A stretch of DNA of 37,512 bases from Actinomycetota bacterium (GTDB lineage Bacteria; Actinomycetota; Actinomycetes; JACCUZ01): assembly GCA_030841035.1 (NCBI GenBank), contig JAVEDI010000104.1:73445-110956 (forward strand). The letters are read 5' to 3'. The notes below the pieces were generated by a model. The model searched no databases. It saw nothing but the letters and a program-made list of their open reading frames with translations, and was not told the origin of the DNA. The position numbers and the translations under genes are program-made. How positions within the stretch are numbered: the first letter of the stretch is position 1; every line of letters begins with the position of its first letter. Shown here piece by piece: positions 7,364 to 35,568 of the stretch.

Positions 7364-7654
7364 TCAGTCGCCGGCCTCGTGACCGATCGTCCGGCTGGCT
7401 CGGACGATCTCGCCGCTCCACGAGCAGCCGGCGCACCAGGTGGCGAACACGCGAGCGGCACCGACCCAGTACTCCACCACGAGCGCGTTCGCCTCGGTGA
7501 AGGGCACCCCGCACTCGGGGCAGTACTTCGGCCGGTCGAGGTAGTGAGCCTCGGCGTCGCGGGCGAACGTCGCGGTGGGTGGTGGCAGCAACGGTTGCAG
7601 GACAGGCAGGTCACCGGCCGTCGCGGCCGTGCGGCCCACCTCGTGCTCAGGCAC
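7364..7654 (-). CDS. Small CxxC (zinc-ribbon-like) protein of the catabolic operon
   Basis: A 96-residue protein, last gene of the leftward operon. The GTG start at 7654 overlaps the end of the Rieske oxygenase gene by eight bases, and a GGGAGGAG site lies about ten bases upstream. The frame continues further upstream, but that part is only a shadow of the Rieske gene. After a Pro-rich N-terminus the protein has CPECGVPFTEANALVV...WCAGCSWSGEI, two CxxC pairs about 25 residues apart, as in a zinc ribbon. An iron-sulfur or rubredoxin-like site is an alternative, but the typical rubredoxin spacing and glycine pattern are not clear. The tight coupling to the oxygenase suggests an accessory or regulatory subunit. 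I do not recognise a named family. Confidence 0.68.
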   Translation of the reverse strand: MPEHEVGRTAATAGDLPVLQPLLPPPTATFARDAEAHYLDRPKYCPECGVPFTEANALVVEYWVGAARVFATWCAGCSWSGEIVRASRTIGHEAGD

Positions 7655-8903
7655 CGGCGGGCGTCTCCTCCCGAGCCGCCGCAGCGGCGATGTGCAGCTT
7701 GAGCAGATCGTCCTTCTGCGGGCTGTAGCGCGAGAAGCCGCTCTCGATCCACTGGATGGGGAACACGGCACCGGCGCCGAACTTGTTCTTCTCGCACGGC
7801 AGGTCGATGCGCTCGTGCGGCTCGCGTACGACGCCGAGCGGGTCGCGTCCTGCGCTGACCAGCTCGAGGTTCTCCTTGAACATGCGACGCATCATGGCGA
7901 CGCCGACGTCACTCTTGCCGAGGTGCTCCAGCGACCGGTCGGTGACCGGTCCCTGGGTCACCCAGGCCATGATGTCCTGACCCTCGACGTAGTCGACGAT
8001 GTGCCGGCCGCGCTCGTTCCGCCACGGGATCTCGTAGTCGGGGATCGATGTCTGCGGCCCCCACTGCCCGCCCTCGGGTGCGTGCACGGTGTACAGCACG
8101 AACCACGTCGTGGTGTCGTCGACAGGCACCCTGATCTGCATCTGGTCGATGCCGCCGCCCCCCACGCGCATGTTGTAGGGGAAGACGAGCGGATGACCGA
8201 CGGCCCAGTCGTCGTCCTCCTCACTGTGACCTTCCAGCAGCCGCCGCTTGATGATGCCGTGGTCGAACTCGTCGAAGGCGACCTTGACGTGCTTGCGCTG
8301 GAAGGAGGACGGAGCGTCGAAGCCCATCGTCTTGCCGAGGAACTCGAAGTAGCGTCCGTGCAACCACTCCACGTGGTGGGGGTCGACCGCGTTCTCCATG
8401 ATCTGCAGCCAGCTGCACGGCAACGTGGCGTGACCGATGTCGCGCACACCGTCCATCACGTACACGTCGAACCGAGGCAGCTCGGGGGCCGGGTCCGGGC
8501 CGACGTAGGCCCACACCATCCCCCCGAGCTCGCTCGCCCTGCCCACCTTGGCCCGCACCCGGTCCCTGAAGTGGGTGTTGTCCGTCTCGGCCGGCTGCTC
8601 GAGGCAGGTGCCGTCGAGCCCGAAGTACCAGCCGTGGTAGCCGCAGCGCAGGCCGTCTGCCTCGACGACGCCGTACGAGAGCGAGGCACGCCGGTGCGGG
8701 CACTGCTCCTCGATGATCCCGAGCCGGCCGGACGGCGTGCGATAGACCGCCCAGTCCTCACCGAGGAGCCGCACCGCCTTGACCGGGAACTCTGCCAGCT
8801 CGCGGCTGAAGCAGACGGGGTACCAGTAGTGGCGAAGCATCGCTCCCATGGCCGTGCCGGGGCCGACGCTGGTCAGTTCCTGGTTCTGCTCGACGCTGAG
8901 CAT
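7647..8903 (-). CDS. Rieske non-heme iron oxygenase, phthalate-dioxygenase type
   Basis: A 418-residue oxygenase component that would use O2 and electrons to hydroxylate an aromatic ring or demethylate a substituent. The Rieske [2Fe-2S] ligands are Cys68/His70 (EEQCPHRRAS) and Cys87/His90 (LRCGYHGWYFG). The mononuclear iron site is E170-N-A-V-D174-P-H-H177-V-E-W-L-H182, with His177 and His182 as ligands. A further acidic ligand is likely in VEGQDIMAW. The motif TQGPVTDRSLEHLGKSDVG places it with phthalate 4,5-dioxygenase/vanillate demethylase-type enzymes. Start ATG 8903 has AGGAAGG upstream. No reductase gene is in the window; a Rieske ferredoxin domain is encoded at 16606-17631. The neighbours suggest its substrate may carry a phosphate group; this is inference. 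Confidence 0.9.
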   Translation of the reverse strand: MLSVEQNQELTSVGPGTAMGAMLRHYWYPVCFSRELAEFPVKAVRLLGEDWAVYRTPSGRLGIIEEQCPHRRASLSYGVVEADGLRCGYHGWYFGLDGTCLEQPAETDNTHFRDRVRAKVGRASELGGMVWAYVGPDPAPELPRFDVYVMDGVRDIGHATLPCSWLQIMENAVDPHHVEWLHGRYFEFLGKTMGFDAPSSFQRKHVKVAFDEFDHGIIKRRLLEGHSEEDDDWAVGHPLVFPYNMRVGGGGIDQMQIRVPVDDTTTWFVLYTVHAPEGGQWGPQTSIPDYEIPWRNERGRHIVDYVEGQDIMAWVTQGPVTDRSLEHLGKSDVGVAMMRRMFKENLELVSAGRDPLGVVREPHERIDLPCEKNKFGAGAVFPIQWIESGFSRYSPQKDDLLKLHIAAAAAREETPAGA

Positions 8904-8946: not shown

Positions 8947-10767
8947 TCAGTCGTCCAGCACGGTCACGGTGCCGTTAGAGCCGTCCACACGCAACCGCTG
9001 GCCGGTCTTGATGCGCTTGGTCCCGAACGCGGTTCCCGTGACCGCGGGCAGGCCGTACTCGCGACAGACGATGGCGGCATGCGACATCATGCCCCCGACG
9101 TCGGTGACGGTCGCCCGGATCTTCCTGAAGATGGGAGCCCAGCTGGGTGCCGTCAGCGGAGCCACCAGGATCTCGCCGTCCTGCACCTCGCCGATCTCGG
9201 CGGGGGAGAAGATCACGCGGGCCAGCCCCTCCACCACCCCCGGGGAGGCGGCCATTCCCTTGAGGTCGCCGGACTCGTCATCAGCGCCGCCCAGCCAACC
9301 GGCCACGCTCTCGCTCGTGATGCCCCACAGCATGATGGTGAACGGCTCGGTGACGACCTCGGGAGGGGCGCCCAGCGCCGGTGGAGGCGACCACTTCTCC
9401 AGTGCCGACACGATCTGCTTCCTGCGCTCTATCTCCGGGGGCCAGTACGCCGGCCCGCGCGAGGGGGCGCCGACCGCCCACGAGGAGTACATGTCCCAGA
9501 GGGCGTCGGGCACCTCGTTGCGCTTGAGGAAGAAGATGTCGTCCTCCTCGGCCAGGAACCCCTCCTTCACCAGTACGCCGCCGAGGGCGCGCATCTTGCG
9601 CCACAGCACCGAGTGCGACCAGTGCTCGACGTAGAAGTTGTGGTTCTCCACGTAGGGGAAGACGGTTCGCGCCAGCCCGAGCTTCTGCTCGAAGGTCGAC
9701 CGGTCGTCGTCGCTGGGCAGCAGCTCGGCGTACTCCAGCACGATGCGGTCGCGCTCGGCCCGGATCTCATCGAGCGGGCGGGCCAGGTCGGTGCCTTCGC
9801 GCAGCATCTGCGTGTAGTTGCCGATGAAGCCGTAGGGGATCTCGCGGTGCTCGATCCAGATGTGGTCGGAGTGGTAGAAGCCCGACCCGCTGGAGAAGTT
9901 GAACCATGGCTCCGCCGACTCGGCCCACGCTGCCAGCCACTGGCGTCCCTCGTCGCTGCCCTGCAGGGCCTCGTCGACGACGTCCGGCCGGCCGGCCGAG
10001 GTGAAGTGCTGGTCGAGGCCGAGCCCCACAGCCAGGCGGGCCAGCTTCTTCAGCTCGTCGTCGGGGCGGAACAGGTCGACGTCGACTCCGGCGACCATCT
10101 TGGCGATGGCGAGGTCGGGGATGTTGGGCCAGGCCTGCTTGCAGAACCCGAAGAAGTCCAGGTAGGCGGCGTAGCCGAGGTTGAGGAACTCGAAGTGGTA
10201 CTGCCAGAGCTTGAGCCCGAGGTCCAGGATGCGGTGGTAGGACTCCATCAGCGCGAGCCCGCTGCCGGTGCCCCGTCCCTCGGTCACGACCTCGAGGGGC
10301 TCGCGGTCGGGCAGCGGCTCCACCTGGACCAGTTCCATGTCGTGGATCAGAGCGCGGATCTTCTCCAGCCAGTTGGCGTAGAGGTCGTTCCAGTTGGCGA
10401 AGTAGTGTCCCGCCCGCTCCATGAACTCGGGGACCCGAGACCCGATCTCCGCCGGGTCCGCGACGCCCACCGGTGAGAGGTAGGCGTAGCCGTAGAGGAT
10501 CCGGTAGTCGATGCCCATCGCCGGCGGGATGATGTAGTGCCGGGTGTTGTACTGCGACAGCGACGCGATGGCGTACTCGTAGAACGTCGCGTCCCACGGT
10601 GTCATCGCCATCGGCCAGTGGACGCCGTCCTGGAACCAGAAGGCCTGGTCCTCTTGCTCGCGCCGGTCCTCGCTGAAGACCGACGAATAGGAGTAAAGGT
10701 CTGTCCAGCCCTCGGCGCCGTCGGGCACCGGGATGTCGAACGGGCTCGGGAAACGCCGCTCGCTCAT
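8947..10767 (-). CDS. PEP-utilizing mobile (phosphohistidine) domain protein, substrate-binding half of a split phosphotransferase
   Basis: A 606-residue protein. The C-terminal 90 residues are a PEP-utilizer mobile domain with GGMMSHAAIVCREYGLPAV; the central His (about residue 563) is the phosphate-carrying residue in this family. The preceding roughly 500 residues lack an ATP-grasp and resemble the middle domain of rifampin phosphotransferase/phenylphosphate-synthase-like proteins (EEDDIFFLKRNEVPDALW). That domain would bind the acceptor. ATG 10767 was chosen because GGAGG lies five bases upstream; an in-frame GTG at 10773 overlaps that site. The ATP-binding partner is the next gene upstream. 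Together they would use ATP, via phosphohistidine, to phosphorylate an alcohol or phenol, as PpsA/PpsB and CreHI do. True PEP synthase activity is less likely because the enzyme is split and sits among aromatic genes. Confidence 0.82.
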   Translation of the reverse strand: MSERRFPSPFDIPVPDGAEGWTDLYSYSSVFSEDRREQEDQAFWFQDGVHWPMAMTPWDATFYEYAIASLSQYNTRHYIIPPAMGIDYRILYGYAYLSPVGVADPAEIGSRVPEFMERAGHYFANWNDLYANWLEKIRALIHDMELVQVEPLPDREPLEVVTEGRGTGSGLALMESYHRILDLGLKLWQYHFEFLNLGYAAYLDFFGFCKQAWPNIPDLAIAKMVAGVDVDLFRPDDELKKLARLAVGLGLDQHFTSAGRPDVVDEALQGSDEGRQWLAAWAESAEPWFNFSSGSGFYHSDHIWIEHREIPYGFIGNYTQMLREGTDLARPLDEIRAERDRIVLEYAELLPSDDDRSTFEQKLGLARTVFPYVENHNFYVEHWSHSVLWRKMRALGGVLVKEGFLAEEDDIFFLKRNEVPDALWDMYSSWAVGAPSRGPAYWPPEIERRKQIVSALEKWSPPPALGAPPEVVTEPFTIMLWGITSESVAGWLGGADDESGDLKGMAASPGVVEGLARVIFSPAEIGEVQDGEILVAPLTAPSWAPIFRKIRATVTDVGGMMSHAAIVCREYGLPAVTGTAFGTKRIKTGQRLRVDGSNGTVTVLDD

Positions 10768-10860
10768 ACCCACCTCCAGGGGGTGCCGGTGGGCGAGGTG
10801 CCCGCCGGTGAGGGTCGACGACGGGGCGTCGCCGACCGTGGTGCCGCGGTGACCGTGCGG

Positions 10861-11934
10861 TCAGCCGGTCTTGCCGTGCGCGTGCAGTGGTGAGGTCAGG
10901 GTCGCGACGATGCTGGACAGATAGTCACCGTGGGTCGCCGCCACCCTCGCGGGTCGGCGGCTCCACACGGTCTCGGGCCGGCTCTGCAGGAGCAGCACGT
11001 TCGAGTCGTCGGGCAGGTCCAGGTCGATCGCCCACTCGACGTCCTGCGGACAGCCGTAGTGCTTCTCCGCCCGCCGGGCCAGCCGCACGACCGCACGGAT
11101 CTCCTCGTCGGTGAGGCTCGGCTGGTCACGGCGTCCGTCGGTGATGGCGACCCGCTCGACCCCGGTCCCGCCCAGACGGTACTCGTACTCCTTGCTCGAG
11201 ACTTGCCGCCGGGTGATCTCGTAGAGCACCTTGTCGACGAGGAAGTTGTCGGGGGTCACCTCGCCGGCGACCACCGCCTCGCCGAAGCCCCACGACGAGT
11301 CGATGGCGACCTGGGACCGGTCACCGTCGGACGGGTTGAGCGTGAAGGCGACCCCCGCGGCCTTGGGCCGCACCATCTTCTGCACGGCCACGCACATCTG
11401 GACCGCGTCGTGCGGGTAGCGCATCTCGGCCCGGTAGGCGATGGCGCGCTCGGTGAACAGGCTCGACCAGCAGCGACGCACCATCGAGAGCACGGCCTCG
11501 GCGCCCTGCACCCACAGGTAGGTCTCGTGCTCACCGGCGAAGCTGGCATCGGGCAGGTCCTCGCTGGTGGCCGACGACCGGACGGCCACCGCCGGCCGCG
11601 GGTCCGCGCACATCTCGCCCAGCGCCGCATAGCCGGCCCGCACCGAGTCCTCCACCTCGGCGGGCACCGGCACGGCCTCGACGAGCTGGCGCAGCTCCAG
11701 GCTCACGGCGGCAAGCTTGCCGAGGTCGGCGGGGTCGAAGGACCCCAGCAGGCTGTGGATGGCGTCGGCGACCTCCGGGTTGGCGTGCACGAAGCGGTAC
11801 GCGTCGGTGGTGACCGCGAAGCCGGGTGGGACGGGCATCCCCGCCACCGTCATGGTGCCGAGGCTGGCGCACTTGCCGCCCAGCAGGCCCGTGTGCTCGG
11901 GGCGGAAGTCGGAGAACCAGATGGTGTAGCTCAT
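10861..11934 (-). CDS. PPDK_N/PEP-synthase ATP-binding subunit
   Basis: A 357-residue protein consisting only of the ATP-grasp part of PEP synthase. Landmarks are GLLGGKCASLGTMTVAGMPV near the start, AVRSSATSEDLPDASFAGEH (ATP binding), AGVAFTLNPSDGDRSQV, SSWGFGEAVVAGEVTPDNF, and QDVEWAIDL...LLLQSRPETVWS, where the family normally continues into the phosphohistidine domain. It ends shortly after that point, so its phosphate acceptor must be the separate downstream protein (8947-10767). ATG 11934 overlaps the stop of the phosphatase gene (ATGA) and has a GGAGG site. The frame stays open upstream as a shadow, which is rejected because the family N-terminus begins at this ATG. Role: hydrolyse ATP and load the partner histidine, as PpsB does in phenylphosphate synthase. 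Confidence 0.88.
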   Translation of the reverse strand: MSYTIWFSDFRPEHTGLLGGKCASLGTMTVAGMPVPPGFAVTTDAYRFVHANPEVADAIHSLLGSFDPADLGKLAAVSLELRQLVEAVPVPAEVEDSVRAGYAALGEMCADPRPAVAVRSSATSEDLPDASFAGEHETYLWVQGAEAVLSMVRRCWSSLFTERAIAYRAEMRYPHDAVQMCVAVQKMVRPKAAGVAFTLNPSDGDRSQVAIDSSWGFGEAVVAGEVTPDNFLVDKVLYEITRRQVSSKEYEYRLGGTGVERVAITDGRRDQPSLTDEEIRAVVRLARRAEKHYGCPQDVEWAIDLDLPDDSNVLLLQSRPETVWSRRPARVAATHGDYLSSIVATLTSPLHAHGKTG

Positions 11935-13037
11935 GCGGGAACCTCCGTGGCCGCAGCCGAGGACGACGTGGACGCCGTCGAGGCGTACCAGTCGGGAAGC
12001 AGAGCGGGGTCGGGCACCAGGATCTCCTGCACCCGGTTGCGGTAGGCCACCGTGGCCTCGGTGCCACCCCGGTGCAGGCGGACCAGCACCTCTTCGGTGT
12101 TGTAGGGCTCGCCGGGGTCGTAGCCGACCGCCCAGGTGGCGAAGGCCCGGATGGGACCGGAGTGGGTGGCCACGATCACCTTCGCGCCCGGTGACTCGGC
12201 CAGGACCCGTCGGATGCCCAGCCAGAAGCGGCGTACGCACGAGGCCGGCGGCTCGAAGTGCAGCATCGGGACGGTCAGCCACAGGTGGATCGGGTCCGCG
12301 CCGCCCTGCTGGGTGGTCCAGAACCGGTCGACCTCGACCATCCAGAGCGGGCGGTCGCCGTGCGCCATCCGCTCGTGGCGCTCCAGGATCTCGACGTACT
12401 CCCGGAAGGCCGCGGTGACGTCGCGCAGGCCGCCGGGCGTCGAGACCTGGAAGTTCAGGAACTCGGGCATCGGTGTGATGTCGGAGACGGCGGCGTCCAC
12501 CCGCCACTGGGCCAGCCCGTCGAGCAGGCCGCGCTGCATGTGCTCGGCGGTCTGCCGCGCCCGGTTGGTGTCGGCGCACACGATGCGCACCTGCTCGCCC
12601 TCGTGCACCGACTTGGACAGGTCGAAGCCGCGGCGGTGGGACTGCCACGAGCCGAGCGGCGTCAGCCCGGACTCGGTGGAGTACCCCTGGGTCTCGCCGT
12701 GCCGCACGAGATGGACCTGCGCGCTGGCCCCTGAGGCCAACAGGTGTCCGTTGGCCGGCAGCTCCTTCGTGCGGGTGATCTCGGCCCAGGCGCGGGTCGT
12801 GGGCAACGGCTGGCCCTCCCACACCACCGGCCCGGTCAGCTCGGGGTCGGTGCCGCGGGCCCGGAACCGGCGCAGGTACAGCGGGGTGTCGGCGTCGGCC
12901 TCGGTCGGCTGAGCCAGCCCGTTGCCCGCGGCCTCGCTCGCGTTGCGACGTTGCCGCTCCTGGTAGCGCCCGAGGTACATCGGCGCATCGGTGCGCTCGG
13001 TCCTGCGCGCCCGTGGCGTGCCGTTCAGCTCACTCAT
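11931..13037 (-). CDS. Histidine phosphatase (phosphoglycerate mutase-like) with N-terminal repeat
   Basis: A 368-residue protein of the histidine phosphatase superfamily. The RHG motif is VHLVRHGETQGYS with His113 as phosphate acceptor; the second catalytic His292 is in IVATHSGPIRAF. The first 100 residues are extra and carry a duplicated short motif, DAPMYLGRYQERQR (17-30) and DTPLYLRRFRARG (50-62), of unknown role. The middle insert contains EVDRFWTTQQGGADP and several tryptophans. Both ends overlap neighbours by four bases (ATGA), so it is translated with the dioxygenase upstream and the ATP-grasp gene downstream. In this context it is a good candidate for removing the phosphate put on by the split phosphotransferase, comparable in role to CreD of p-cresol catabolism. 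The substrate is inferred, not shown. Confidence 0.86.
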   Translation of the reverse strand: MSELNGTPRARRTERTDAPMYLGRYQERQRRNASEAAGNGLAQPTEADADTPLYLRRFRARGTDPELTGPVVWEGQPLPTTRAWAEITRTKELPANGHLLASGASAQVHLVRHGETQGYSTESGLTPLGSWQSHRRGFDLSKSVHEGEQVRIVCADTNRARQTAEHMQRGLLDGLAQWRVDAAVSDITPMPEFLNFQVSTPGGLRDVTAAFREYVEILERHERMAHGDRPLWMVEVDRFWTTQQGGADPIHLWLTVPMLHFEPPASCVRRFWLGIRRVLAESPGAKVIVATHSGPIRAFATWAVGYDPGEPYNTEEVLVRLHRGGTEATVAYRNRVQEILVPDPALLPDWYASTASTSSSAAATEVPA

Positions 13038-13945
13038 GTGTGCACCGTGAAGAAGCGCTGGTTCACGACCCCGTCGTAGTAGAAGATCGCCCGACCCATC
13101 TCGCCCTCGGTCCAGGTGATCGGCTCGGCGTCGGGGTCGACCCAGTAGCCGCCGCTGAAGATCTCGTTCCGGTTGCCTGCCGGGTCGAAGAAGTACGTCG
13201 TGAAGCCTCGCGTGGCGCCGTGCCGTGTCGGGTTCACCTCGATCGGCACACCGTGGTAGCTGAGCAGGTCGGCCGCGTCGCGGACCGCGCCCCAGTCATC
13301 GACGTAGAACGCGAAGTGGTGCAGGCCGCCCTGGGGGCCGGTGATCATCGCCAGGTCGTGCGGGGTGTGGGTGCGTTCCATGAAGACCGCGATGCGTTGC
13401 CCGTCGTCACCGAGGATCTGCTCGGTGAGCCGGAACTCGAGCACGTCGCGGAAGAAGCGCAGGCCCTCGTCCACGTCCTCCGCGGTGAGGAACAGGTGGT
13501 CCAGCCGCGGCGGGGCGATGCCCACCAGACCCAGCGGGCGCACCGGCGGGTTGGTCAGCGGCAGCATGTTGCCCACGTTTGCCATGCCGTGGACCAGCTC
13601 GGTCAGGTGCCCGGTGGGTGACAGGAAGCGCACGGCCTCTCCGTGGCCCGGCGCCAGGCTTCCCGCGCCGTGGCGGGTCACCTCGCAGCCGTACTGCTCG
13701 ACCGCCTTCTCCAGCCGCTCCAGGTCGTCGAGGTGCTCGACCTTGAAACCGACGTGCTCCAGGCCGTGGGTCGCCGCCGCCTTGAGGATCACGGAGTGAT
13801 GCTGGTGCTCGTCCCACCCCTTGAGGAAGACCCGGTCGCCCTCCCGCGCGGTCTCGATGAGCCCGAGCACCTCGCAGTAGTAGGCCGTCGCCAGCTCGAG
13901 GTCCGGGCAGCGGACCTCGACGTGCGACAGGCGCAGGATGCCCAT
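13034..13945 (-). CDS. Catechol 2,3-dioxygenase-type extradiol dioxygenase (copy 1)
   Basis: A 303-residue two-domain vicinal-oxygen-chelate protein close in layout to XylE. It would open a catechol ring next to the hydroxyls with Fe(II) and O2 to give a 2-hydroxymuconic semialdehyde-type product. Iron ligands fit His150 (PRLDHLFLT), a His of the pair at 209-210 (GLHHFAFY) and Glu261 (FFDPAGNRNEIFSGG). The motif NPTRHGATRG matches the GPTRHG region of XylE, and the C-terminus GRAIFYYDGVVNQRFFTVHT also matches. ATG 13945 has GAGGAGA five bases upstream. The stop overlaps the phosphatase start (ATGA). It is a clear paralog of the next gene upstream. The ring substituents it accepts are unknown. 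Confidence 0.9.
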   Translation of the reverse strand: MGILRLSHVEVRCPDLELATAYYCEVLGLIETAREGDRVFLKGWDEHQHHSVILKAAATHGLEHVGFKVEHLDDLERLEKAVEQYGCEVTRHGAGSLAPGHGEAVRFLSPTGHLTELVHGMANVGNMLPLTNPPVRPLGLVGIAPPRLDHLFLTAEDVDEGLRFFRDVLEFRLTEQILGDDGQRIAVFMERTHTPHDLAMITGPQGGLHHFAFYVDDWGAVRDAADLLSYHGVPIEVNPTRHGATRGFTTYFFDPAGNRNEIFSGGYWVDPDAEPITWTEGEMGRAIFYYDGVVNQRFFTVHT

Positions 13946-13985
13946 GGATCTCTCCTCGATCGGTCAGGCAGGACGTCGTGCGCGG

Positions 13986-14894
13986 CTAGGTGTGGACCTT
14001 CATGAAGCGTTCGTTGAGATCCCCTTCGTAGTAGAAGATCGCCTTGCCGATGTGGTCCTCGGTCCAGGTGATCGTCGGGAAGTCCGGATCGGGTCGGTAG
14101 CCGCCGGTGAAGACCTCGTTGCGGGTGCCGAGCGGGTCGAAGAAGTAGATGGTGTTGCCCCGTGTGATGCCGTGCCGGGTGGGCCCCACGTCGATCTGCA
14201 CGCCGTTGTAGGCCAGCACGTCCGCAGCCTTGCGGACGTGGTCCCAGTCGTCGAGCCAGAACGCGAAGTGGTGCAGCCCACCGTTGGGCCCGGAGACGAC
14301 CGCGAGGTCGTGCGGCGAGTGGGAGCGCTCCATCCAGGTGCCGATCTGGTGGCCGTTGCCGTCCAGCAGCTGCTCGGTGAGGCGGAACCCGAGCACGTCG
14401 ATGTAGAACCGGCTCGCGTCGCCCACCTCCTCCGCGGTCACGAGGAGATGGTCCATGCGCGGTGGCGCGATGCCGCGCAGGCCGTCGACGTACGCCGGTG
14501 GGTCGATCTTGGGGAGCAGCCCTCCCACCCGGTCGACCTCGTGGACCAGCGTCATGACATGACCGCTGGGGGTCTCGAAGCGGACTCCCTCGCCCTGCGC
14601 GACCTCTTCCCGGCGTGCCACGCGCCGGACCGGCATGCCGTAGCGCTCGACAGCGATCTCGAGGTCCTCGAGGTCGTCCGCGTGCTCCACCTTGAAGGTG
14701 AAGCCGTCCATCCCGACGCGTGGGGAGTAGCGCAGCCGCAGCGAGTGGTGGTCTTCTTCGTCCCAGCACTTGAGGTAGGCGGACCCGTCGGTCCGCTCGA
14801 CCTCGATCAGGCCCATCACGTCGGTGTAGTAGGCCGAGGCAAGCTCCATGTCCGGGACGGTGATGTCCACGTGCGAGAGGCGCAGGATGCCCAT
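13986..14894 (-). CDS. Catechol 2,3-dioxygenase-type extradiol dioxygenase (copy 2)
   Basis: A 302-residue paralog of the previous protein and the first gene of the leftward operon. Predicted iron ligands are His149 (PRMDHLLVT), one of His208/His209 (GLHHFAFW) and Glu260 (GTRNEVFTGG). The stretch DVGPTRHGITRGNTIYFFDP and the C-terminus GKAIFYYEGDLNERFMKVHT are very close to XylE of Pseudomonas. ATG 14894 gives the same N-terminus as the paralog (MGILRLSHV); a longer open frame upstream is a shadow. A GGGGAGA sequence lies rather far (about 12 bases) from the start. Two copies may serve different catechols or the substrate before and after side-chain change. No downstream meta-pathway hydrolase, dehydrogenase or hydratase is encoded in the window. 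Confidence 0.9.
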   Translation of the reverse strand: MGILRLSHVDITVPDMELASAYYTDVMGLIEVERTDGSAYLKCWDEEDHHSLRLRYSPRVGMDGFTFKVEHADDLEDLEIAVERYGMPVRRVARREEVAQGEGVRFETPSGHVMTLVHEVDRVGGLLPKIDPPAYVDGLRGIAPPRMDHLLVTAEEVGDASRFYIDVLGFRLTEQLLDGNGHQIGTWMERSHSPHDLAVVSGPNGGLHHFAFWLDDWDHVRKAADVLAYNGVQIDVGPTRHGITRGNTIYFFDPLGTRNEVFTGGYRPDPDFPTITWTEDHIGKAIFYYEGDLNERFMKVHT

Positions 14895-15056: not shown

Positions 15057-15752
15057 ATGACGCCGACGGCCAGGCCGGAGGACATGCGGGCCGCGATGGC
15101 CGACTTCGTGGCCGCGGCCCACGACGCCTACCTCGCCCAGGCGCGGCTGCTGCCGCCCGCCGAGCGTGCACGCATGCCTCTGGTCGCGGCTGGGTCCTTC
15201 ACCGTGGTCGCGGCCGGCGCGCGCAACCTGCACGTGCTGGCCACGACCGAGGCGCTGCCCGCTCCCGTGGGTCAGGAGGTGCAGTTCACCGGCGCAGCGG
15301 AGGACCTCGCCTGGCAGCTGCGGTTCTTCGACCCTGTCGTGCTTCCGGGGCTGGGCATGATCGACGAGGGAGTGACCGCCGCGCCCGAAGAGGTGCGCCG
15401 GACCCTCGGCGTGCACACCGTGCTCTATCACCTCGTGGTCCAGCCGGGAGCCGAGCTGACCGGCCACCATGCGCTGCACATGGGCGCGGGGCTGGCCAAC
15501 AGCCACGCCTCGCGGTCGCGCGACCTGGAGGCGGTCCGTGCCCACCGGCCCGGCGCGGCGCCGCTGGTCGAGGAGCTCGCCGGCGCCCTGCAGGCCGGTC
15601 TGCCGCGCGCGGCCGCGCTGCTCGCCGCGGCGATCGCGCCGTACGACGAGGCCGTGGGCCGCCTCGCCCGGCAAGCCGGCCCCGACCCGCAGGCCGTGCT
15701 GTCGGTCCTCGTTGCCGCTGTCCGCGAGGAGCCCAGCAGTGCCCTCCGCTGA
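15057..15752 (+). CDS. Unknown protein coupled to the IclR regulator
   Basis: A 231-residue, probably soluble, alpha-rich protein. I do not recognise the family. ATG 15057 was chosen because AGGA lies about eight bases upstream; an earlier in-frame ATG at 15006 has no such site and would run into the control region. Features are an N-terminal helix (MADFVAAAHDAYLAQARLL), a middle mixed alpha/beta part with LRFFDPVVLPGLGMIDEGV and HTVLYHLVVQPGAELTGHHA, and an Ala/Leu-rich C-terminal helical part. His pairs in TGHHALHMGAG could bind a metal or ligand, but this is only a guess. It overlaps the iclR-like gene by 14 bases and is divergent from the degradation operon, so it probably belongs to the pathway (a substrate-handling or sensing protein). 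Confidence 0.75.
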   Translation: MTPTARPEDMRAAMADFVAAAHDAYLAQARLLPPAERARMPLVAAGSFTVVAAGARNLHVLATTEALPAPVGQEVQFTGAAEDLAWQLRFFDPVVLPGLGMIDEGVTAAPEEVRRTLGVHTVLYHLVVQPGAELTGHHALHMGAGLANSHASRSRDLEAVRAHRPGAAPLVEELAGALQAGLPRAAALLAAAIAPYDEAVGRLARQAGPDPQAVLSVLVAAVREEPSSALR

Positions 15753-16605: not shown

Positions 16606-17631
16606 GTGGTCGAACTCGTCGAAGTCGCCGTCTGCTCCGTCGCGGATCTCCCGCCCGGCACCATGCGCCGGCTCGAGGCCGCCGGCCGACCGGTCTGCGT
16701 CGGCAACAACAACGGCGCCTTGTTCGCTGTGGCGGACAGCTGTCTGCACAAGGGCCTGTCGTTGTCGCAGGGACTGCTGCGCGACGGGCACGTCACCTGC
16801 CCCGGCCACTGGTGGCGCTACGACGTGCACACCGGCGCTCTGGCCGGCCACGAAGGGGTCGCCGCGGCGACCTATCCGGTCTACGCCGTTGGAGGAGATG
16901 TCGTGGTCGCCGTTCCGCCGGCCGAGCCGAGGCTGAGCTGGCGTGAGGTCCTGCTGCAGCACGCCCGAGCCGGTGCGGCGAAGCCGGCTGTGCCCGAGCG
17001 CCCCGTGCCGCCGGGTGCCGTGGGCGGCGTCATCTGGGACATGGGTGGCATCCTCTACCCGACGCCCTTCGAGGTGTTCGAGGCCCTGGAGCAGGAGCGC
17101 GGCCTGCCGGCGGGCGCCCTGCCGCGCGGGCCCTTCGCACCCGAGGGCGACCCGTTGTACGACGCCGTCGATGCGGGCGAGCTGCCGGAGCCCGAGTACT
17201 GGGCCACCCGGCAGGCGGAGTGGCAGGCACGCGGGGTCGACGTCGACGTACACAGGGACATCGACTGGACGGGTCGAGAACGCCCGCAGGTGATGGCGCT
17301 GCTCGAGCGGCTGGGAACCCGCCTGCCCCAGCTCGTGCTGACCAACGACGCGAGCGCCTTCCTCGGTGCCGGCTGGCGCCAGACCTGGCCGTTGCGCGGC
17401 CACTTCGCCGGCCTGGTCGACTCGGTGGACCTCGGTGTCCGCAAGCCCCATCCCGACGCCTACGTTGCCGCGTCCGACGCTCTCGGACTGGCGGTCGGGG
17501 ACTGCGTGTTCATCGACGACCTGTCGGTCAACGTCCTCGCCTCGCGGCAGGCCGGCATGCCGGCCGTGCGGTTCGACGTGACCGACGTGCCGGGCAGCAT
17601 CGCGCGGATCGAGGCGGCGGCGGGCCTGTGA
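16606..17631 (+). CDS. Rieske ferredoxin - HAD phosphatase fusion protein
   Basis: A 341-residue two-domain protein. Residues 1-105 are a Rieske [2Fe-2S] ferredoxin with Cys46/His48 (DSCLHKGLSL) and Cys65/His68 (VTCPGHWWRYD). Residues 138-341 are a HAD-IA hydrolase: motif I VIWDMGGILYP with nucleophile Asp145, motif II VLTND (Thr246), motif III Lys280 (RKPHPDAY) and motif IV VFIDDLSVNV (Asp304/Asp305). The second Asp of motif I is Gly147, as in YihX-type phosphatases. A Pro/Ala-rich linker of about 30 residues joins them and the frame has no break. GTG 16606 has GAGGCGG upstream. The ferredoxin could feed electrons to the Rieske oxygenase at 7647-8903 while the HAD domain removes phosphate from its product. 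The pairing is the key evidence for a phosphate-tagged pathway. Confidence 0.88.
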   Translation: MVELVEVAVCSVADLPPGTMRRLEAAGRPVCVGNNNGALFAVADSCLHKGLSLSQGLLRDGHVTCPGHWWRYDVHTGALAGHEGVAAATYPVYAVGGDVVVAVPPAEPRLSWREVLLQHARAGAAKPAVPERPVPPGAVGGVIWDMGGILYPTPFEVFEALEQERGLPAGALPRGPFAPEGDPLYDAVDAGELPEPEYWATRQAEWQARGVDVDVHRDIDWTGRERPQVMALLERLGTRLPQLVLTNDASAFLGAGWRQTWPLRGHFAGLVDSVDLGVRKPHPDAYVAASDALGLAVGDCVFIDDLSVNVLASRQAGMPAVRFDVTDVPGSIARIEAAAGL

Positions 17632-28781: not shown

Positions 28782-30004
28782 GGCGTCAGCTTGGCGTCGA
28801 CGAGTCGAAGGAGCTCCTCCGCGGCGTAACCGCCGATGGCCTCTTCGACCGGAGCGTGGTCGGTCTCCTGCAGCGCCCGACGTGCGGCGCCGAAGGCTCG
28901 CTGCGCCGAAGGCAGGTCGCCGGCCGCCTCCAGGGCCAGTCCGAGGTGCAGATGGGCGAGCGCGTCGTCGTGCGCGAAGAAGGCCCACTTGCGGAAGTGC
29001 ACGACGGCGCTCTGATGGTCACCTGCCGCGAGGGCTCGCTGTCCTGCCTCGCCCAGGGCGGCGACGGCCGCGGCGTCGGCGTCCGGGACGAGCCGCGTGC
29101 CCGCCGCGGCCGGCGTGGCGCGCCGGGCCGGCTCGGGGTGTGGGGTGACGGGCTGGACGGCCTGGGCACGGCTCCCGCCGTCCTCACTGGTCCGCTGCAC
29201 CCGCCGTACGGCGGTCCTGGCGCGCCGCGGCCGGTAGGCATAGGCCTCGCCCATCCGGACGGTCTCGTAGCGGTCGCTCACCGGCCAGATCGCCTCGGCC
29301 GAACCGAGGAACAGCCAGGCGTCGGGGAGGCCGTCGGCCAGGCGATCCAGGACTGCACGGGTGTGCTCGGGCGAGAAGTAGATGAGGACGTTGCGGCAGA
29401 AGACCACCTGGCAGGAGCGGACCTCGTCGGGCAACCCGTCCACCAGGTTGTGGCGCGCCGTGGTGACCCGGTCTCGCAGCGACTGGTTGATCTGCCAGCC
29501 CTTGCTGGTGGCCGTCATGTGACGCGTGACCCGGTCCGGGGACAAGCCGTTGATCTCGCGCGACAGGTACTGAGCGGTCGCCGTCCGCTGCAGCGCCGAC
29601 GTCGACAGGTCCGTCGCGACCACCGTGCCGGCGACGCGGTTCTCGTCGAGCAGCATCGCGAGGCTGAACGCTTCTTGGCCGTTTGCGCAGCCGGCGCTCC
29701 AGATCCGCACCGGGCGGGAGAGCCGCGGCAGGATGGCGCTCGCGAGGATCTCGAAGTGTTCCGGATGACGGAAGAAGCCTGTCTCCTGCACAGTGATCCG
29801 ATTGAGCAGGTTCTGCAGATTGCGCCCCGTGACGGACAGGCTCTGGAGGTAGCTTTCCAGGTCTCCCTCGTGCAGAACCGCCTCGTCGCGGATGCAGCGG
29901 CGCAGTCGGCTGCGCAGCGACGCCTCGGGTCGCAGGCCGATCCGCGAGCGCAGCAGATCGGCGACCCTGTCCACGACCTCCTCCGAGGGCAGCCCCCGGC
30001 TCAC
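28778..30004 (-). CDS. CheR-type MCP methyltransferase with C-terminal TPR (WspC-like)
   Basis: A 408-residue enzyme that methylates glutamates on the chemoreceptor using S-adenosylmethionine. The N-terminal helical part ends in TVQETGFFRHPEHFE. The SAM-binding motif is RIWSAGCANGQEAFSLAM (about 100-117), slightly changed from the usual GCATGEEPYS, and VVFCRNVLIYFSPE (about 200-214) is typical. A Pro/Arg-rich linker leads to a TPR-like region (residues 320-408: AGQRALAAGDHQSAVVHFRK...ALAHLHLGLALEAAGDLPSA). GTG 30004 overlaps the cheB stop (GTGA) and has GGAGG upstream. The TPR tail is what WspC-type CheR proteins have. Confidence 0.93.
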   Translation of the reverse strand: MSRGLPSEEVVDRVADLLRSRIGLRPEASLRSRLRRCIRDEAVLHEGDLESYLQSLSVTGRNLQNLLNRITVQETGFFRHPEHFEILASAILPRLSRPVRIWSAGCANGQEAFSLAMLLDENRVAGTVVATDLSTSALQRTATAQYLSREINGLSPDRVTRHMTATSKGWQINQSLRDRVTTARHNLVDGLPDEVRSCQVVFCRNVLIYFSPEHTRAVLDRLADGLPDAWLFLGSAEAIWPVSDRYETVRMGEAYAYRPRRARTAVRRVQRTSEDGGSRAQAVQPVTPHPEPARRATPAAAGTRLVPDADAAAVAALGEAGQRALAAGDHQSAVVHFRKWAFFAHDDALAHLHLGLALEAAGDLPSAQRAFGAARRALQETDHAPVEEAIGGYAAEELLRLVDAKLTP

Positions 30005-31044
30005 GTGCGCACCTCCGCCACCGCCTTGCAGATCGCCGCGGCCAGCTGCTCCGGGGCGAGCAACCGGGTGACGGCGCCGAGGCGCTGGGCCGCCCGCGGC
30101 ATACCGAACACCGCGCACGAGGCCTGGTCCTGCGCGAAGGTCTGGCCACCCTGCTGGTACAGCTCCAGCAGTCCTTGCGCCCCGTCCTCGCCCATCCCGG
30201 TCAGGACGACGCCGACGCCGGCGGACCGGGCTTGCGTGGCGACCGATCGCAGCAGCTCGTCGGCTGAGGGGCGATGCAGCGTGTCGGGGGCAGCGCCCAG
30301 CTCGAGACGACCGCCTGTCCCCAGGCGCAGATGGCAACCGGCCGGTGCGAGATAGACCCGCCCGGGTCGAGCGACCTGGTCGTGCCCGGCGATCTCCACC
30401 GGCAGCGCCGAGACTCGGTTCATCCAGTCCAGCAGGCCGCTGATGAAGTCGGCATGGATGTGCTGCACGACCAGGACCGGGGCCCGCAGGCCGCCGAGGC
30501 CGGACAGGATGGTCGCGAGCACGCTCGGACCGCCGGTGGAGGCGGCGAGCGCGACCACCGACTGCCTACCCCTCGGGGAAGCCGGTCGGCAGAGCGCGGT
30601 CCTCGGCAGCACGCCACGTGGGTGACGGATCGTGCTCACCTGGCGGATCCGGCGAACGCTGCGACGTAGCTCGATCTCCAGCTCTTTGGTCCAGCGGGCG
30701 GGCGTGGGCAGGGCGTCGAGCGCGCCCGCCACCACAGCCTTGACCGCGGTAGGGGAGTTGCGATCGGCGATCCGCGATGAGAGCACCAAGATCGGTGTCG
30801 GCGTGCGCGCCATGATCTGCTCGATGACGTGCTGTCCGCTGCCGTCGCTCAGCTGCAGGTCGAGGATCACCACGTCCGGACGGTCCTTGGCGACGAGCGC
30901 GATGGCGGCGGCACCGGTGGACGGCTGGCCCGTGACGCGGATGTCGCCGTCGCGTTGCAGGATGCGGGCCAGGTCACTGGTCGGGTCGGACGGGTCCTCG
31001 ACGAGCACTGCTCTGATCGGGCTGGCGGGCATCGCTGCGGTCAC
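30001..31044 (-). CDS. CheB-type methylesterase (WspF-like)
   Basis: A 347-residue receiver-esterase that removes methyl groups from the receptor. The receiver has Glu16/Asp17 and phospho-acceptor Asp62 (VVILDLQLSDGSG), but the conserved Lys is replaced: the place of KP reads ALPTP with Thr114. The methylesterase triad is complete: Ser169 (ALAASTGGP), His195 (VVQHIHADF) and Asp287 (GMGEDGAQG). The linker 120-160 is Arg-rich. GTG 31044 overlaps the cheA stop (GTGA). It may be controlled in an unusual way because of the missing Lys. Confidence 0.94.
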   Translation of the reverse strand: MTAAMPASPIRAVLVEDPSDPTSDLARILQRDGDIRVTGQPSTGAAAIALVAKDRPDVVILDLQLSDGSGQHVIEQIMARTPTPILVLSSRIADRNSPTAVKAVVAGALDALPTPARWTKELEIELRRSVRRIRQVSTIRHPRGVLPRTALCRPASPRGRQSVVALAASTGGPSVLATILSGLGGLRAPVLVVQHIHADFISGLLDWMNRVSALPVEIAGHDQVARPGRVYLAPAGCHLRLGTGGRLELGAAPDTLHRPSADELLRSVATQARSAGVGVVLTGMGEDGAQGLLELYQQGGQTFAQDQASCAVFGMPRAAQRLGAVTRLLAPEQLAAAICKAVAEVRT

Positions 31045-33083
31045 GTCCTGCCGCCGATGAGGCGACGTACCGCCGTGAGCAGGCTGCCCTCGTCGAAGCC
31101 GCTCTTGATGATGTAGCCGTCCGCTCCGGCGTCGAGTCCCCTCCGTCGATCGGCCTCGCTCGACCGAGAGCTGAGGATCAGCACCGGGATGTTCGCCAAC
31201 GACGGATGGGCCCGAACGGCCTCAGTCAGCGCGAAGCCGTCCATGTTCGGCATCTCGATGTCGGTCAGGATCAGGTCGCTCGGTTCCTCGGCCAGCTTCG
31301 AGAGGGCGTCCGCGCCATCGGTGGCAACGCGTACCCCGAAGCCGGCCCGCTCAAGGATGTTGCGCTGCAGCTCGCGGACGGTCAGAGCGTCATCGACCAC
31401 CAGGATGCTCCGCTGCGGCGTGCCACCTGAGGGCGCTGCAACGGCCAGCGGGTCACCGCGCTGGGCCTGGCGGGCCCGCTGGATGAGACCAGGTGGGTCG
31501 AGCACCACGAGGATGGAGCCGTCCGGCTCGACGCTGGCGCCCGCGACGGCGGGCAGAGGGGGCAGCAGTCGGTTCAGTGCCTTGAGCACGACGTCTCGCT
31601 GGCCTACCAGCTGGTCCACCTGGAACGCGTGTCGACGTACGGCGTCGGTCAGCACCACGATCGGCCCACGACTCGGTTGCGTGGAGCCCAGGCCGACCGC
31701 GTCGGCCATCGACGACACCGGCACCGCCTGGTCGTCGACCCAGACCATCGCACGCCCCTCGGCGCGGGTCTGGCTCGACTGGTCGAAGCCCTGAGAGAGC
31801 ACCACGCGGTGGAACGGCAACGCGAAACGCTGACCGGCCGACTCGACCAGCAGGCAGCGCAGCACCGCGAGGGTGATGGGCACGATGATCCGGAACTCGG
31901 TTCCCGCGCCCGGCCGAGAGCGCACCTCGACGCGGCCGCGTGCGGCCTCGACATTGGTCCGCACGACGTCGAGCCCCACGCCCCGACCGGACACGTCGGT
32001 GACGAACGTCGACGTCGAGAGGCCGGAGTGGAACACCAGCTGAAGTGCGTCCTCGTCACTCATGTCCTGGGTGCCGACGCCCTGACGCGCTGCTTGTTCA
32101 CGCACGCGTGCGAGGTCGATCCCGTCACCGTCGTCGGTGATCGCGATGATGACTTCCGACCCGAGCTGCATGGCATGCAGCCGCACGTTGCCCTCCGCCG
32201 GCTTGCCGGCTGCCGTCCGCTCCGCAGCAGGCTTGATGCCGTGGTCCACAGCGTTGCGGACGAGGTGCAGCAACGAGTCCGACAGCTGCGTGAGAACGCC
32301 GCGGTCCAGCTCGGTGTCCCCGCCGCGTACCTCCCAACGGACCTGCTTGCCCTGAGCACGCGACAGGTCGCGCACCGCGCGCTGGAGCTTGTCCGTGACC
32401 GTGGCAAGCGGCACCATCCGGGCGCGCATCGCCCGGTCCTGCAGGCCGTTCAGGGACCTGGAGAGCTCGTTGAACTCGGCGTTGGATGCCGCGTCGAGGC
32501 CGAAGCTGTCCTTCAGCATCCGGCCGACCCGCAGATGAGCGGACGCGGACTCACCGATCAGGCGGACCATCTCGTCCAGCCGTTCCATCGGCACCATCAC
32601 GACACCGTGCGCGTCGCTGGACGACGGGTCTGGCGCGCGTGCCGTCAAGCCGTTGTGGGCCGGTACGACGTCGCGTGGTGCGGCCACCACGCCGACGGCC
32701 ACCGGAGCCTCAGCCGCCGTCGCGCTGTCGGTGTCGAGGACGTCCGCCGTCACGTCGTCGCCGAGCGCGGAGGCGATGACCGTGCCGAGCCGGTCGGCGC
32801 CGGCGAGCAGCGTGTCGATGACCTCGGGGGTCACGGTCTGACGTCCGGCCCTCAGGTCTTCGACGATCTCCTCGAGCTCGTGCGCCAGCCGGCTCACATC
32901 GGTCAGACCAGCAACGGCCGAGGAGCCCTTCAGGGTGTGCAGCTCGCGGAAGACAGAACGGACCAGCGTCTCCTCGTCGCCGGTCTGCTCGAGCTCGAGC
33001 AGTAGCTGATCGAGGTGCGTGAGGCGAACCTCGGCCTCCTGCGCGAAGAGCGCACGGATCTCGTGCACGCCCAGGGCGGCCAT
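31041..33083 (-). CDS. CheA-REC hybrid histidine kinase (WspE-like)
   Basis: A 680-residue kinase. The HPt domain holds His49 (FRELHTLKGSSAVAG). A short variable linker (110-160) lacks a CheY-binding P2. The dimerisation and ATPase domains follow with RMVPLATVTDKLQR, HLVRNAVDHGIKPA (N-box), ITDDGDGIDL (G1) and SGRGVGLDVVRTNVE (G2). A CheW-like regulatory domain is next, then a C-terminal receiver with Asp608 (LILTDIEMPNMDG) and Lys660. The fused receiver is a mark of Wsp- and Frz-type systems. It would phosphorylate the CheB and GGDEF regulators. ATG 33083 shares one base with the cheW stop (TGATG). Confidence 0.96.
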   Translation of the reverse strand: MAALGVHEIRALFAQEAEVRLTHLDQLLLELEQTGDEETLVRSVFRELHTLKGSSAVAGLTDVSRLAHELEEIVEDLRAGRQTVTPEVIDTLLAGADRLGTVIASALGDDVTADVLDTDSATAAEAPVAVGVVAAPRDVVPAHNGLTARAPDPSSSDAHGVVMVPMERLDEMVRLIGESASAHLRVGRMLKDSFGLDAASNAEFNELSRSLNGLQDRAMRARMVPLATVTDKLQRAVRDLSRAQGKQVRWEVRGGDTELDRGVLTQLSDSLLHLVRNAVDHGIKPAAERTAAGKPAEGNVRLHAMQLGSEVIIAITDDGDGIDLARVREQAARQGVGTQDMSDEDALQLVFHSGLSTSTFVTDVSGRGVGLDVVRTNVEAARGRVEVRSRPGAGTEFRIIVPITLAVLRCLLVESAGQRFALPFHRVVLSQGFDQSSQTRAEGRAMVWVDDQAVPVSSMADAVGLGSTQPSRGPIVVLTDAVRRHAFQVDQLVGQRDVVLKALNRLLPPLPAVAGASVEPDGSILVVLDPPGLIQRARQAQRGDPLAVAAPSGGTPQRSILVVDDALTVRELQRNILERAGFGVRVATDGADALSKLAEEPSDLILTDIEMPNMDGFALTEAVRAHPSLANIPVLILSSRSSEADRRRGLDAGADGYIIKSGFDEGSLLTAVRRLIGGRT

Positions 33084-33529
33084 CAGGCCACCCCGCTCGG
33101 CGTGGTGTCCTCACGGCTGCTCGCCGCGCCGAGCCGCTCGGACGCCAGGAGCGCGTCAGGGTCCAGCAACACCACGATCTGTCGCTGCACCCGGTAGGTC
33201 CCCGCCGTGCCGGGCAGCTCCGATGGCCCGGTGGAGACGCCCAGGGTGGCCCGTTGCGGGAATGCGGTGGCGGCCAGCCCGACCAGTCCGCGCGGCGACT
33301 GCAAGACCACCGCGAACGCGACCGGGTCGCTGCCGTTGAGCCCCAGCAGGTGCGCCGTGTCGAGCAGCGGCACGATCTGGCCCCTCAGGTTGAACAGGCC
33401 GAGCACCAGCGGCGGGGCGGTCACCAGCGGGGTGAGGGGCGGCGCCGCCACCACTTCTCGCACCCAGCCGACCGGCACGGCGTACATGTCAGCACCCACC
33501 GGGAGCAGTACCGCCTGCTCGCCGGTCAT
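33083..33529 (-). CDS. CheW-type coupling protein
   Basis: A 148-residue adaptor linking receptor and CheA. The CheW fold is visible: [41 protein letters not shown] (the typical G-x-x-NLRG-x-I-x-P-x-x-D) and [18 protein letters not shown] 33529 overlaps the receptor gene stop (ATGA). Only one CheW gene is present; the Pseudomonas Wsp system has two. Confidence 0.93.
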
Positions 33530-35517
33530 CGGTGCTCGTTGCCCGAGCCTGCTGAGGCGGCTGCGGTCTCCAGGTTGCCGGCGAGGTCGGCCAGGTCGCC
33601 GGCCGCGGAGGCGATCTGCTGCGCCGTGGCCGAGACCTGGCGGCTCGCGTCGGTGAGCTGCTCCATCGTCTCCACGACCTGGGCGGTGGCGCTGCGCTGC
33701 TGCTGCGTGGTGAGGCGAACCTGGCCGTTGGCGTCGGTGACGGCCTCGAGCAGCAGCAGGCCCTGCTGCATCTGCTTGGCGCCCTTCTCCATGGCCATGA
33801 CCGTGGCGTTGGACTCGCCCTGAACGGCGGCCACGATCGCCGCGATGTCGCCTGCCGAGGCCTTGGAGCGCTCGGCCAGCCGGCGTACCTCGTCTGCCAC
33901 GACCGCGAATCCCCAGCCGTTCTCGCCGGCACGGGCCGCCTCGATCGCCGCGTTGAGGGCCAGCAGGTTGGTCTGGTCGGCGATGTCGTTGATCAGCACG
34001 AGCAGGGCGTCGATGTCATTGACGCGACCGGCGAGGGCCAGCGTCCGCTCGCTGGACAGGATGATGTCTGCCTCGGCCTGTTCCAGGTTCTGCCTGGTCT
34101 CCGCGGTCTGCCGGGCGACGTCGTCGACGGTGTCGGCGATCGCCATCGACGCCCGCGCAAGCTCTTCGGTGGTCGCGGTCGCCTGGGTGATCGCCGCGCT
34201 CTGCTGGGTGGTGGTGGCGGCCAGTTCGTCGGAGGACGCCGACAGCTCCGCCGCCGCCGAGTTCACGTCCACGCCTGCCGTCGTGACCTGTTCGAGCAGC
34301 TGCTGGCAGGTGGCCAGCATGGCGTTGAACGACTCGGCGAGCACGGCCAGCTCGACGGGTCCCGACGGCTGCGCGCGGACCGAGAGGTCACCGTGGGCGA
34401 CCCGTCGCGCCACGTCGGTCAACCCGCGGACCGGACGCGTCGTGCCCCAGGCCAGGGCGGCCGAGCAGCACACCGCCAGAAGGCCGCCGAGCACCACGAG
34501 GAGCGCCGCTCTGTGGCGTTGGCTGGTCACGGGAGCGAGCACCCGGGAGGCATCGTCCTGCGCGATCAGGACCCAGTGCAGGGCATCGACGACGTCGTAG
34601 CCGCCGATGACATCGTGTCCCTCGAGGTCGGTGAACCGGACCGTGCCCGGTTGACGGGTCGCGGTGGCGCGGCGGATCGCGGCGTTGTCCACCTTGGTGG
34701 TGAGCGCACCCGCGGCGAGCAGCGCGGCGTCGCCGTGCAAGCCGTGCATGTCGTCGGTGTCGTAGATGACCCGGCGCTGCGAGTCGACCACGACGACCTC
34801 ACTGCCCTGACCCAGCTCGGGGTCGAGCAGGACTCCAAGCGCGGCGAGGTCGAGGTGGCCGACCACGACGGCCTGCACCCGTCCGCCGGCGTCCAGCACC
34901 GGTTGGGCGATGATCCACTGGAGGTGGTCGCCCTTGCGGACCAGGGACGTGAGGACCGGCGTGCCGGACGCGGCGGTGCGGAACCAGTCCTGCGCGGCCG
35001 CGCTTGCGGGAGAACCGGTGCCGCTGGAGGCCACCGGCTTGCCGCTGAGGTCGACGATGTCGATGCCCAGGTAGCCGGGGTTGATCCGGTCGATCCGGGT
35101 GATCAGCGCCTCGCTGGCGGGGCTGTCCGGCCGGCCCGAGACCGTGCCGGCGATGGCGCGCATGTCGAAGCGGCGCTCCGAGAGCCAGTCCTCCAGCCGC
35201 AGCGTCAAGGCGCGCGACACCGTGACGCCCTTGAACTCGGCCGCCGCGGTGAGGCTCGACGACGACTCCGCGGTCAAGACCAGGGCGAGCGCGATCATCA
35301 AGGGGAGCGACACCAGCAACATCGCGGCCACCAGCCGGATGCCCAACCGGTGCGGCAACGATCGCCAGCGGCCTCCTGTGCTCGTGCGCCTGTCGGCCCC
35401 TACCGCAGGACGGTGAGGGGGCGCGACAGGGGCAGCCAGCGGCGACCGCGACCCCCGGGACGCCTCGTACCGGGCAGGCGGGGCCTCTGGCGGGGCAGGC
35501 CGTGTGTCGGTGCTCAT
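33526..35517 (-). CDS. Methyl-accepting chemoreceptor (WspA-like position)
   Basis: A 663-residue receptor. ATG 35517 has GAGGA five bases upstream; a GTG at 35547 has no site. It has a Pro/Arg-rich cytoplasmic N-terminus of about 58 residues, TM1 near 61-82, a large external sensor of the Cache type ([57 protein letters not shown]), TM2 near 325-348, HAMP, and the signalling domain. The conserved hairpin tip [20 protein letters not shown] and [15 protein letters not shown] are clear. There is no C-terminal CheR-binding pentapeptide. The signal sensed is unknown. It is the first gene of the operon. Confidence 0.95.
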
Positions 35518-35568
35518 CTGGTCCTCGCGCGCGATTGCAGGGCTCACGACAAACCGTCGTTACCCGCC

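Follow-up and report, generated by a model that had tools for sequence, protein, structure and literature searches.

A single gene in the window (the whole 37,512-nucleotide stretch of DNA analyzed here) raises the question of why a Rieske ferredoxin and a HAD phosphatase should share one polypeptide. Fusion of two domains hints strongly at a common function, and this one suggests that oxidation and phosphate removal belong to one pathway. We consider it likely that the gene encodes both the ferredoxin of a neighboring Rieske oxygenase and a pathway phosphatase, both serving a single aerobic pathway of aromatic degradation. The gene and its parts are:

16606..17631 (+): fused gene, Rieske [2Fe-2S] ferredoxin plus HAD-IA phosphatase, 341 aa, GTG start
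16606..16917 (+): ferredoxin domain, residues 1-104, with ligands C46, H48, C65 and H68 (PF00355, ligands, Foldseek)
16918..16977 (+): conserved ferredoxin tail, residues 105-124, S-x-R-E-x-x-L-x-H-A (alignment, predicted helix)
16978..17022 (+): linker, residues 125-139, disordered and unconstrained (pLDDT, pN/pS)
17023..17631 (+): HAD-IA phosphatase domain, residues 140-341, with D145-M-G147, T246, K280, D304 and D305 (PF00702, Foldseek, alignment)

Architecture of the fused protein

As a preliminary description of this DNA had reported, one frame joins a complete Rieske domain to a HAD domain. It is open for 341 residues without interruption, and Pfam places the Rieske family (PF00355) at residues 7-86 (E 1.3e-15) and the hydrolase/HAD family (PF00702) at residues 142-317 (E 1.1e-9), both over their curated cut-offs; a match to HAD_2 (PF13419) fell under its cut-off. 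Among NCBIfam models, the N-terminal half matched dioxygenase ferredoxins (HcaC-like, AndAb) and the C-terminal half TIGR02247/TIGR01509, HAD-IA models of the epoxide-hydrolase-N-terminal type. The AlphaFold model, built on a shallow alignment of seven sequences, contains two folded domains, with pLDDT below 50 at residues 122-132. Foldseek matched the ferredoxin domain to BphA3, CarAc and the toluene and naphthalene dioxygenase ferredoxins (TM up to 0.88 on the target), and the HAD domain to the phosphatase domain of human soluble epoxide hydrolase (sEH) and to Escherichia coli YihX.

The Rieske ligands named in the preliminary description (C46-x-H48 and C65-x2-H68) are all present and are invariant in the 31 ferredoxins aligned. 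In sequence and fold, the N-terminal domain resembles the HcaC, AndAb, CarAc and BphA3-type ferredoxins of three-component Rieske dioxygenases; those are single-domain proteins, whereas the fused protein adds a conserved tail and a HAD domain. The tail, in which a helix is predicted at residues 112-122, is conserved across the same alignment (R113 and A120 in 30 of 31 sequences, L117 in 29, H119 in 28) and is also found on unfused ferredoxins of these clusters. It is a possible docking element.

The claim that the HAD domain has all four motifs holds only in part. The nucleophile D145, T246, K280 and the acidic pair D304/D305 are all there, and these catalytic residues are kept in 49 relatives (T246 is replaced by serine in eight), but motif I reads D-M-G rather than DxD and so has no second aspartate as general acid/base. 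G147 is invariant in all 49 HAD sequences compared, both fused ones included. YihX, a working phosphatase, also has a DxG motif I, and membership in the wider HAD-IA group can therefore stand without DxD. The domain shares with YihX and the sEH N-terminal domain its fold, TIGR02247-type sequence and T/K/DD motifs; it differs in pathway context and in that DxG is kept throughout the group studied here. An acid phosphatase deprived of its general acid kept its activity on 4-nitrophenyl phosphate while that on glucose 1-phosphate fell 10^3-10^4-fold (PMC8938923). By analogy with that enzyme, which has another fold, a HAD lacking Asp+2 would be compatible with phenolic leaving groups, plain phenol being a poorer leaving group than 4-nitrophenol.

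Occurrence of the fusion

The same fusion occurs in a second genome of this uncultured actinobacterial genus (G051, MAG BP_174, contig JAVEDJ010000225.1), from a different assembly, at 75% identity and in the same gene context; both sampled genomes of the genus thus carry it. Between the two fused genes, pN/pS was low in the Rieske (0.38) and HAD (0.29) domains, whereas in the linker (residues 125-139) it reached 1.1. The pattern is that of two apparently working domains on a free linker. Neighboring cluster genes in the same genome pair gave 0.05-0.24. The fused gene is thus changing more rapidly than its cluster neighbors, a point that tells against our main reading. A frameshift or assembly artifact joining two genes, which the preliminary description had set beside homologs existing only as separate proteins as grounds for abandoning the fusion, is ruled out by the second genome, the constrained domains and the free linker. 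It had also allowed for fusions in genomes that have no Rieske oxygenase; both fused genomes have the oxygenase in the same cluster. In G051, the stop codon of iclR and the start codon of the fused gene share bases (ATGA), so that the fused gene is probably part of the iclR operon. In-frame GTG codons at residues 129, 134 and 139 are candidate internal starts for the HAD domain, and no Shine-Dalgarno sequence was evident before them.

A contig scan across genomes, run with two peptide patterns taken from the N-terminal end of the HAD, a design that unrelated Rieske-HAD fusions would escape, gave 16 loci. At all but the G051 record, a ferredoxin gene is directly followed by a HAD gene, often overlapping it, and there was no further fusion among them; at L056 the HAD frame is broken. 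The hosts of these unfused loci are Nanopelagicales, Acidimicrobiia and other MAGs. No further fusion was found in the class sample (394 genomes), the phylum sample (396 genomes) or viral contigs, no plasmid match covered 80% of the query, and six genomes from other genera of the same family gave no match. Wherever both genes are readable outside the genus, they are separate and adjacent or overlapping; in L036 the ferredoxin stop and the HAD start share the sequence ATGA.

Most relatives manage with two separate genes, so the fusion is not required. The link to the nearby oxygenase and phosphotransferase that the preliminary description proposed is supported by gene context: where ferredoxin and HAD are unfused, their genes are usually neighbors within the same cluster. 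In quick trees, whose deeper branching is weakly supported, the shortest path from the fused ferredoxin leads to ferredoxins of a different family (f60), and the fused HAD falls within a clade, HAD1, that adjoins the ferredoxin in family f38 and Acidimicrobiia. The pairing is not strict, since some clusters in f34 and f60 have another HAD paralogue, or none, next to the ferredoxin, and in G400 HAD1 adjoins the oxygenase.

The fusion might instead be fortuitous, an intergenic boundary deleted with no functional link beyond a shared operon. It is confined to one genus, and neighbors overlap in relatives, so that a small deletion would suffice. We nevertheless give this account almost no credence, given that two species, whose versions are 75% identical, have both retained the fusion and that each of its domains is constrained; moreover, this account denies only a special advantage and leaves a shared pathway untouched.

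The conserved gene cluster

The genes surrounding the fused gene are:

7647..8903 (-): Rieske oxygenase, phthalate 4,5-dioxygenase type (PF00355 and LigXa_C; PDB 7fhr, 7fjl)
8947..10767 (-): dikinase swivel/acceptor subunit, CreH/HpeH/PpsA-like (PF00391; PRK08296.1-2, 876 bits)
10861..11925 (-): dikinase ATP-grasp subunit, CreI/HpeI/PpsB-like (PF01326, 8e-107; NCBIfam PEP synthase N-terminal part)
11931..13037 (-): histidine phosphatase, RHG at 112, ATHSG at 290 (PF00300)
13034..13945 (-): catechol 2,3-dioxygenase, copy 1 (TIGR03211, 358 bits, cut-off 320)
13986..14894 (-): catechol 2,3-dioxygenase, copy 2 (TIGR03211, 366 bits, cut-off 320)
15057..15752 (+): conserved cluster protein, 231 aa
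15739..16569 (+): IclR-family regulator, directly upstream of the fused gene

Several families of the class and phylum show the same arrangement of genes. The conserved cluster comprises the dikinase, Rieske oxygenase, histidine phosphatase, IclR regulator and both catechol 2,3-dioxygenases; in most cases it includes the lower pathway of meta cleavage as well. Between iclR and the ferredoxin, relatives have genes for 2-oxopent-4-enoate hydratase, acylating acetaldehyde dehydrogenase, 4-hydroxy-2-oxovalerate aldolase and a second hydratase/decarboxylase, and many add a hydroxymuconic-semialdehyde-type dehydrogenase. The meta-pathway genes are absent from the window cluster and have homologues on another contig (C26) of the same genome. 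The 231-aa protein, which had no significant Pfam or NCBIfam match, precedes iclR in clusters covering that place.

The locus has the separate ATP-grasp and swivel subunits and the catalytic histidine of a two-component aryl dikinase, the swivel subunit carrying the motif GGMMSHAAIVCRE at 558 (SHAAIVCRE) with His 563 as the presumed catalytic residue. Elsewhere, two swivel subunits lie near one detected ATP-grasp subunit on a single stretch (L099 and L100, in G495 and G685). The tandem catechol 2,3-dioxygenases (13034-14894) are about 57% identical, both have the iron ligands, and both paralogues are kept in clusters covering that place. Catechol is the likely product, since both pass the equivalog cut-off of TIGR03211, and the downstream dioxygenases in turn suggest that the dikinase acts on a phenolic substrate.

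An aniline-like substrate would give a different chemistry, in which the dikinase forms a phosphoamidate, the oxygenase yields catechol and the HAD clears leftover phosphoamidate. A related two-subunit enzyme phosphorylates aniline, as well as phenol (PMC7500099), and glutamylation is reported to tag the amine in 1-naphthylamine degradation (PMC11335346). Phenols are the substrates of most characterized dikinases of this kind, however, and we noticed no amine-specific gene in the conserved cluster; we regard an amine substrate as improbable.

From its gene context, the oxygenase is the presumed electron acceptor of the fused ferredoxin. Among solved structures, phthalate dioxygenases (PDB 7fhr, 7fjl) match its sequence best. 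Phthalate dioxygenase binds phthalate through two arginines. These have no counterpart in the window oxygenase when the two are aligned, so its substrate probably differs from phthalate. Its C-terminus weakly resembles LigXa_C and VanA_C (Pfam, 1.5e-12 and 3.9e-5), domains of lignin O-demethylases, which raises the idea of an O-demethylase acting on a guaiacol-like substrate, with phosphate removed afterwards and catechol again the product. The weakness of these matches, the phthalate dioxygenases at the head of the PDB matches and the lack of any formaldehyde-detoxifying gene noticed in the conserved cluster make O-demethylation very unlikely in our estimation.

Within the cluster we identified no gene for a reductase. 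Contig C26 has a pyridine-nucleotide-dependent flavoprotein beside the meta-pathway homologues, and this could be the ferredoxin reductase. The meta-pathway set of C26 lies in a second aromatic cluster (L069, G000:C26, 2456-12957) along with a second Rieske oxygenase, 57% identical to that of the window.

A putative phosphorylation-dependent route to catechol

The association of the ferredoxin and HAD with the oxygenase and dikinase is supported by gene context. From this arrangement we infer the order of steps, the substrate, the phosphatase activity and any advantage of tethering. The two-component dikinase (8947-11925) would phosphorylate the hydroxyl group of a phenol-type compound, and the oxygenase (7647-8903) would hydroxylate the resulting aryl phosphate next to the phosphate tag, receiving electrons from a ferredoxin reductase by way of the fused ferredoxin. 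The HAD domain, the histidine phosphatase or both would then dephosphorylate the hydroxylated aryl phosphate to catechol, whose ring the two catechol 2,3-dioxygenases would open. Meta-pathway enzymes, whose genes belong to the same cluster in relatives but here lie on the other contig, would finish this putative route from phenol-type compound through aryl phosphate, hydroxylated aryl phosphate and catechol to meta cleavage.

The preliminary description held that the fusion makes sense only if both domains act on the same substrate. That condition is too strict: the ferredoxin would pass electrons to the oxygenase without touching the substrate, and the domains would serve successive steps. 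Fusion might hold the two activities at a set stoichiometry, let the phosphatase dock at the oxygenase via the ferredoxin, or bring no more than co-expression. Phthalate dioxygenases take doubly charged substrates, and an argument from charge makes an aryl phosphate conceivable in place of phthalate as the substrate of the window oxygenase.

The tie between ferredoxin and phosphatase points toward a Rieske enzyme whose oxygenation of aromatics depends on phosphorylation; we found neither this combination nor a description of an aerobic phenylphosphate-Rieske route in the open-access literature searched. A bolder reading, whose chances seem to us a little short of even, is that several mostly uncultured lineages of Actinomycetota share an undescribed aerobic pathway in which phosphate is a removable handle for a Rieske oxygenase and a phenol-type compound passes through aryl phosphate and catechol phosphate to catechol, and that in one genus the electron carrier and phosphatase are joined in a single protein, which might dock at the oxygenase and free the product there.

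Role of the HAD phosphatase

The histidine phosphatase (11931..13037), which had no PDB match, is a candidate for a second phosphatase of the pathway. It is found with its catalytic motifs (RHG and a second histidine) in every cluster covering that place, and the HAD therefore need not be the main phosphatase. This conservation also favors a reading in which the HAD is a repair or housekeeping enzyme, removing dead-end aryl phosphates for example, while the histidine phosphatase performs the main dephosphorylation and the fusion only fixes co-expression. Several clusters have two HAD paralogues plus the histidine phosphatase, and the HAD domain is less constrained than other cluster genes.

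Evidence against this reading comes from a search that did not depend on the HAD, in which the phylum sample was queried with the dikinase swivel subunit and clusters of at least 62% identity that were long enough to judge were retained. A HAD1 or HAD2 gene or remnant is kept in nine of the ten informative orthologous dikinase clusters, a count that includes a HAD remnant in G743 and, in G629, a HAD2 gene beside the oxygenase on another contig; in G446 a recognizable HAD1/HAD2 gene was absent from the cluster in the stretch read. Furthermore, a second dikinase pair in G051 (L070, G051:C407, 6949-10486) is directly followed by a HAD2 phosphatase, and no histidine phosphatase homologue was detected in that stretch. 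This locus probably represents another aryl-phosphate pathway. We accordingly consider a housekeeping role unlikely, and prefer a HAD that takes part in the pathway.

HAD paralogues also adjoin less similar dikinase pairs in G051, G419, G619 and G682, and most such pairs have no adjoining HAD paralogue. A general link between the HAD family and PEP-synthase genes would be an overstatement: on rhizobial plasmids, more distant relatives of the HAD do not adjoin a dikinase, which rules out dikinase linkage of the whole HAD family and makes the link a property of this clade.

Comparison with known dikinase pathways

The window cluster shares a two-component dikinase with the CreHI/CreD 4-cresol pathway of Corynebacterium glutamicum, in which a phenol is phosphorylated and the phosphorylated compound is then oxidized, by a P450 acting on the methyl group, and dephosphorylated. 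The window differs from Cre in its Rieske oxygenase, two catechol 2,3-dioxygenases and fused ferredoxin-HAD. In the PpsAB route of Thauera aromatica, a PEP-synthase-like enzyme likewise phosphorylates phenol; that route is anaerobic and proceeds by carboxylation. Neither a P450 gene (as in Cre) nor a biotin carboxylase gene (as in Hpe) was recognized in the window cluster.

Among two-component dikinases on phenolics, HpeHI phosphorylates acetovanillone (PMC12167813), and CreHI acts on 4-cresol and PpsAB on phenol, as cited in the same paper. The Hpe pathway of Rhodococcus rhodochrous GD02 (HpeHI, HpeCBA, HpeD) is similar to our proposed route in having the same kind of kinase and a HAD-type phosphatase after the middle step: the middle enzyme takes only the phosphorylated compound, and HpeD acts after it (PMC9618137). 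The Hpe middle step is a carboxylation, whereas that of the window would be an oxygenation, and the Hpe phosphatase is NagD-like, in contrast to the HAD-IA domain found here. Rieske proteins go unmentioned in PMC9618137 and PMC12167813.

We regard the pathway as of greater interest than the fusion itself. If it operates as proposed, Rieske oxygenation would be a third middle step of dikinase-initiated aromatic pathways, besides P450 oxidation and carboxylation, and gene clusters in Acidimicrobiia and Nanopelagicales MAGs would gain a function. Apart from the aromatic cluster, the window contains chemotaxis genes (CheB, CheA-like and an MCP with dCache) at 30001-35547.
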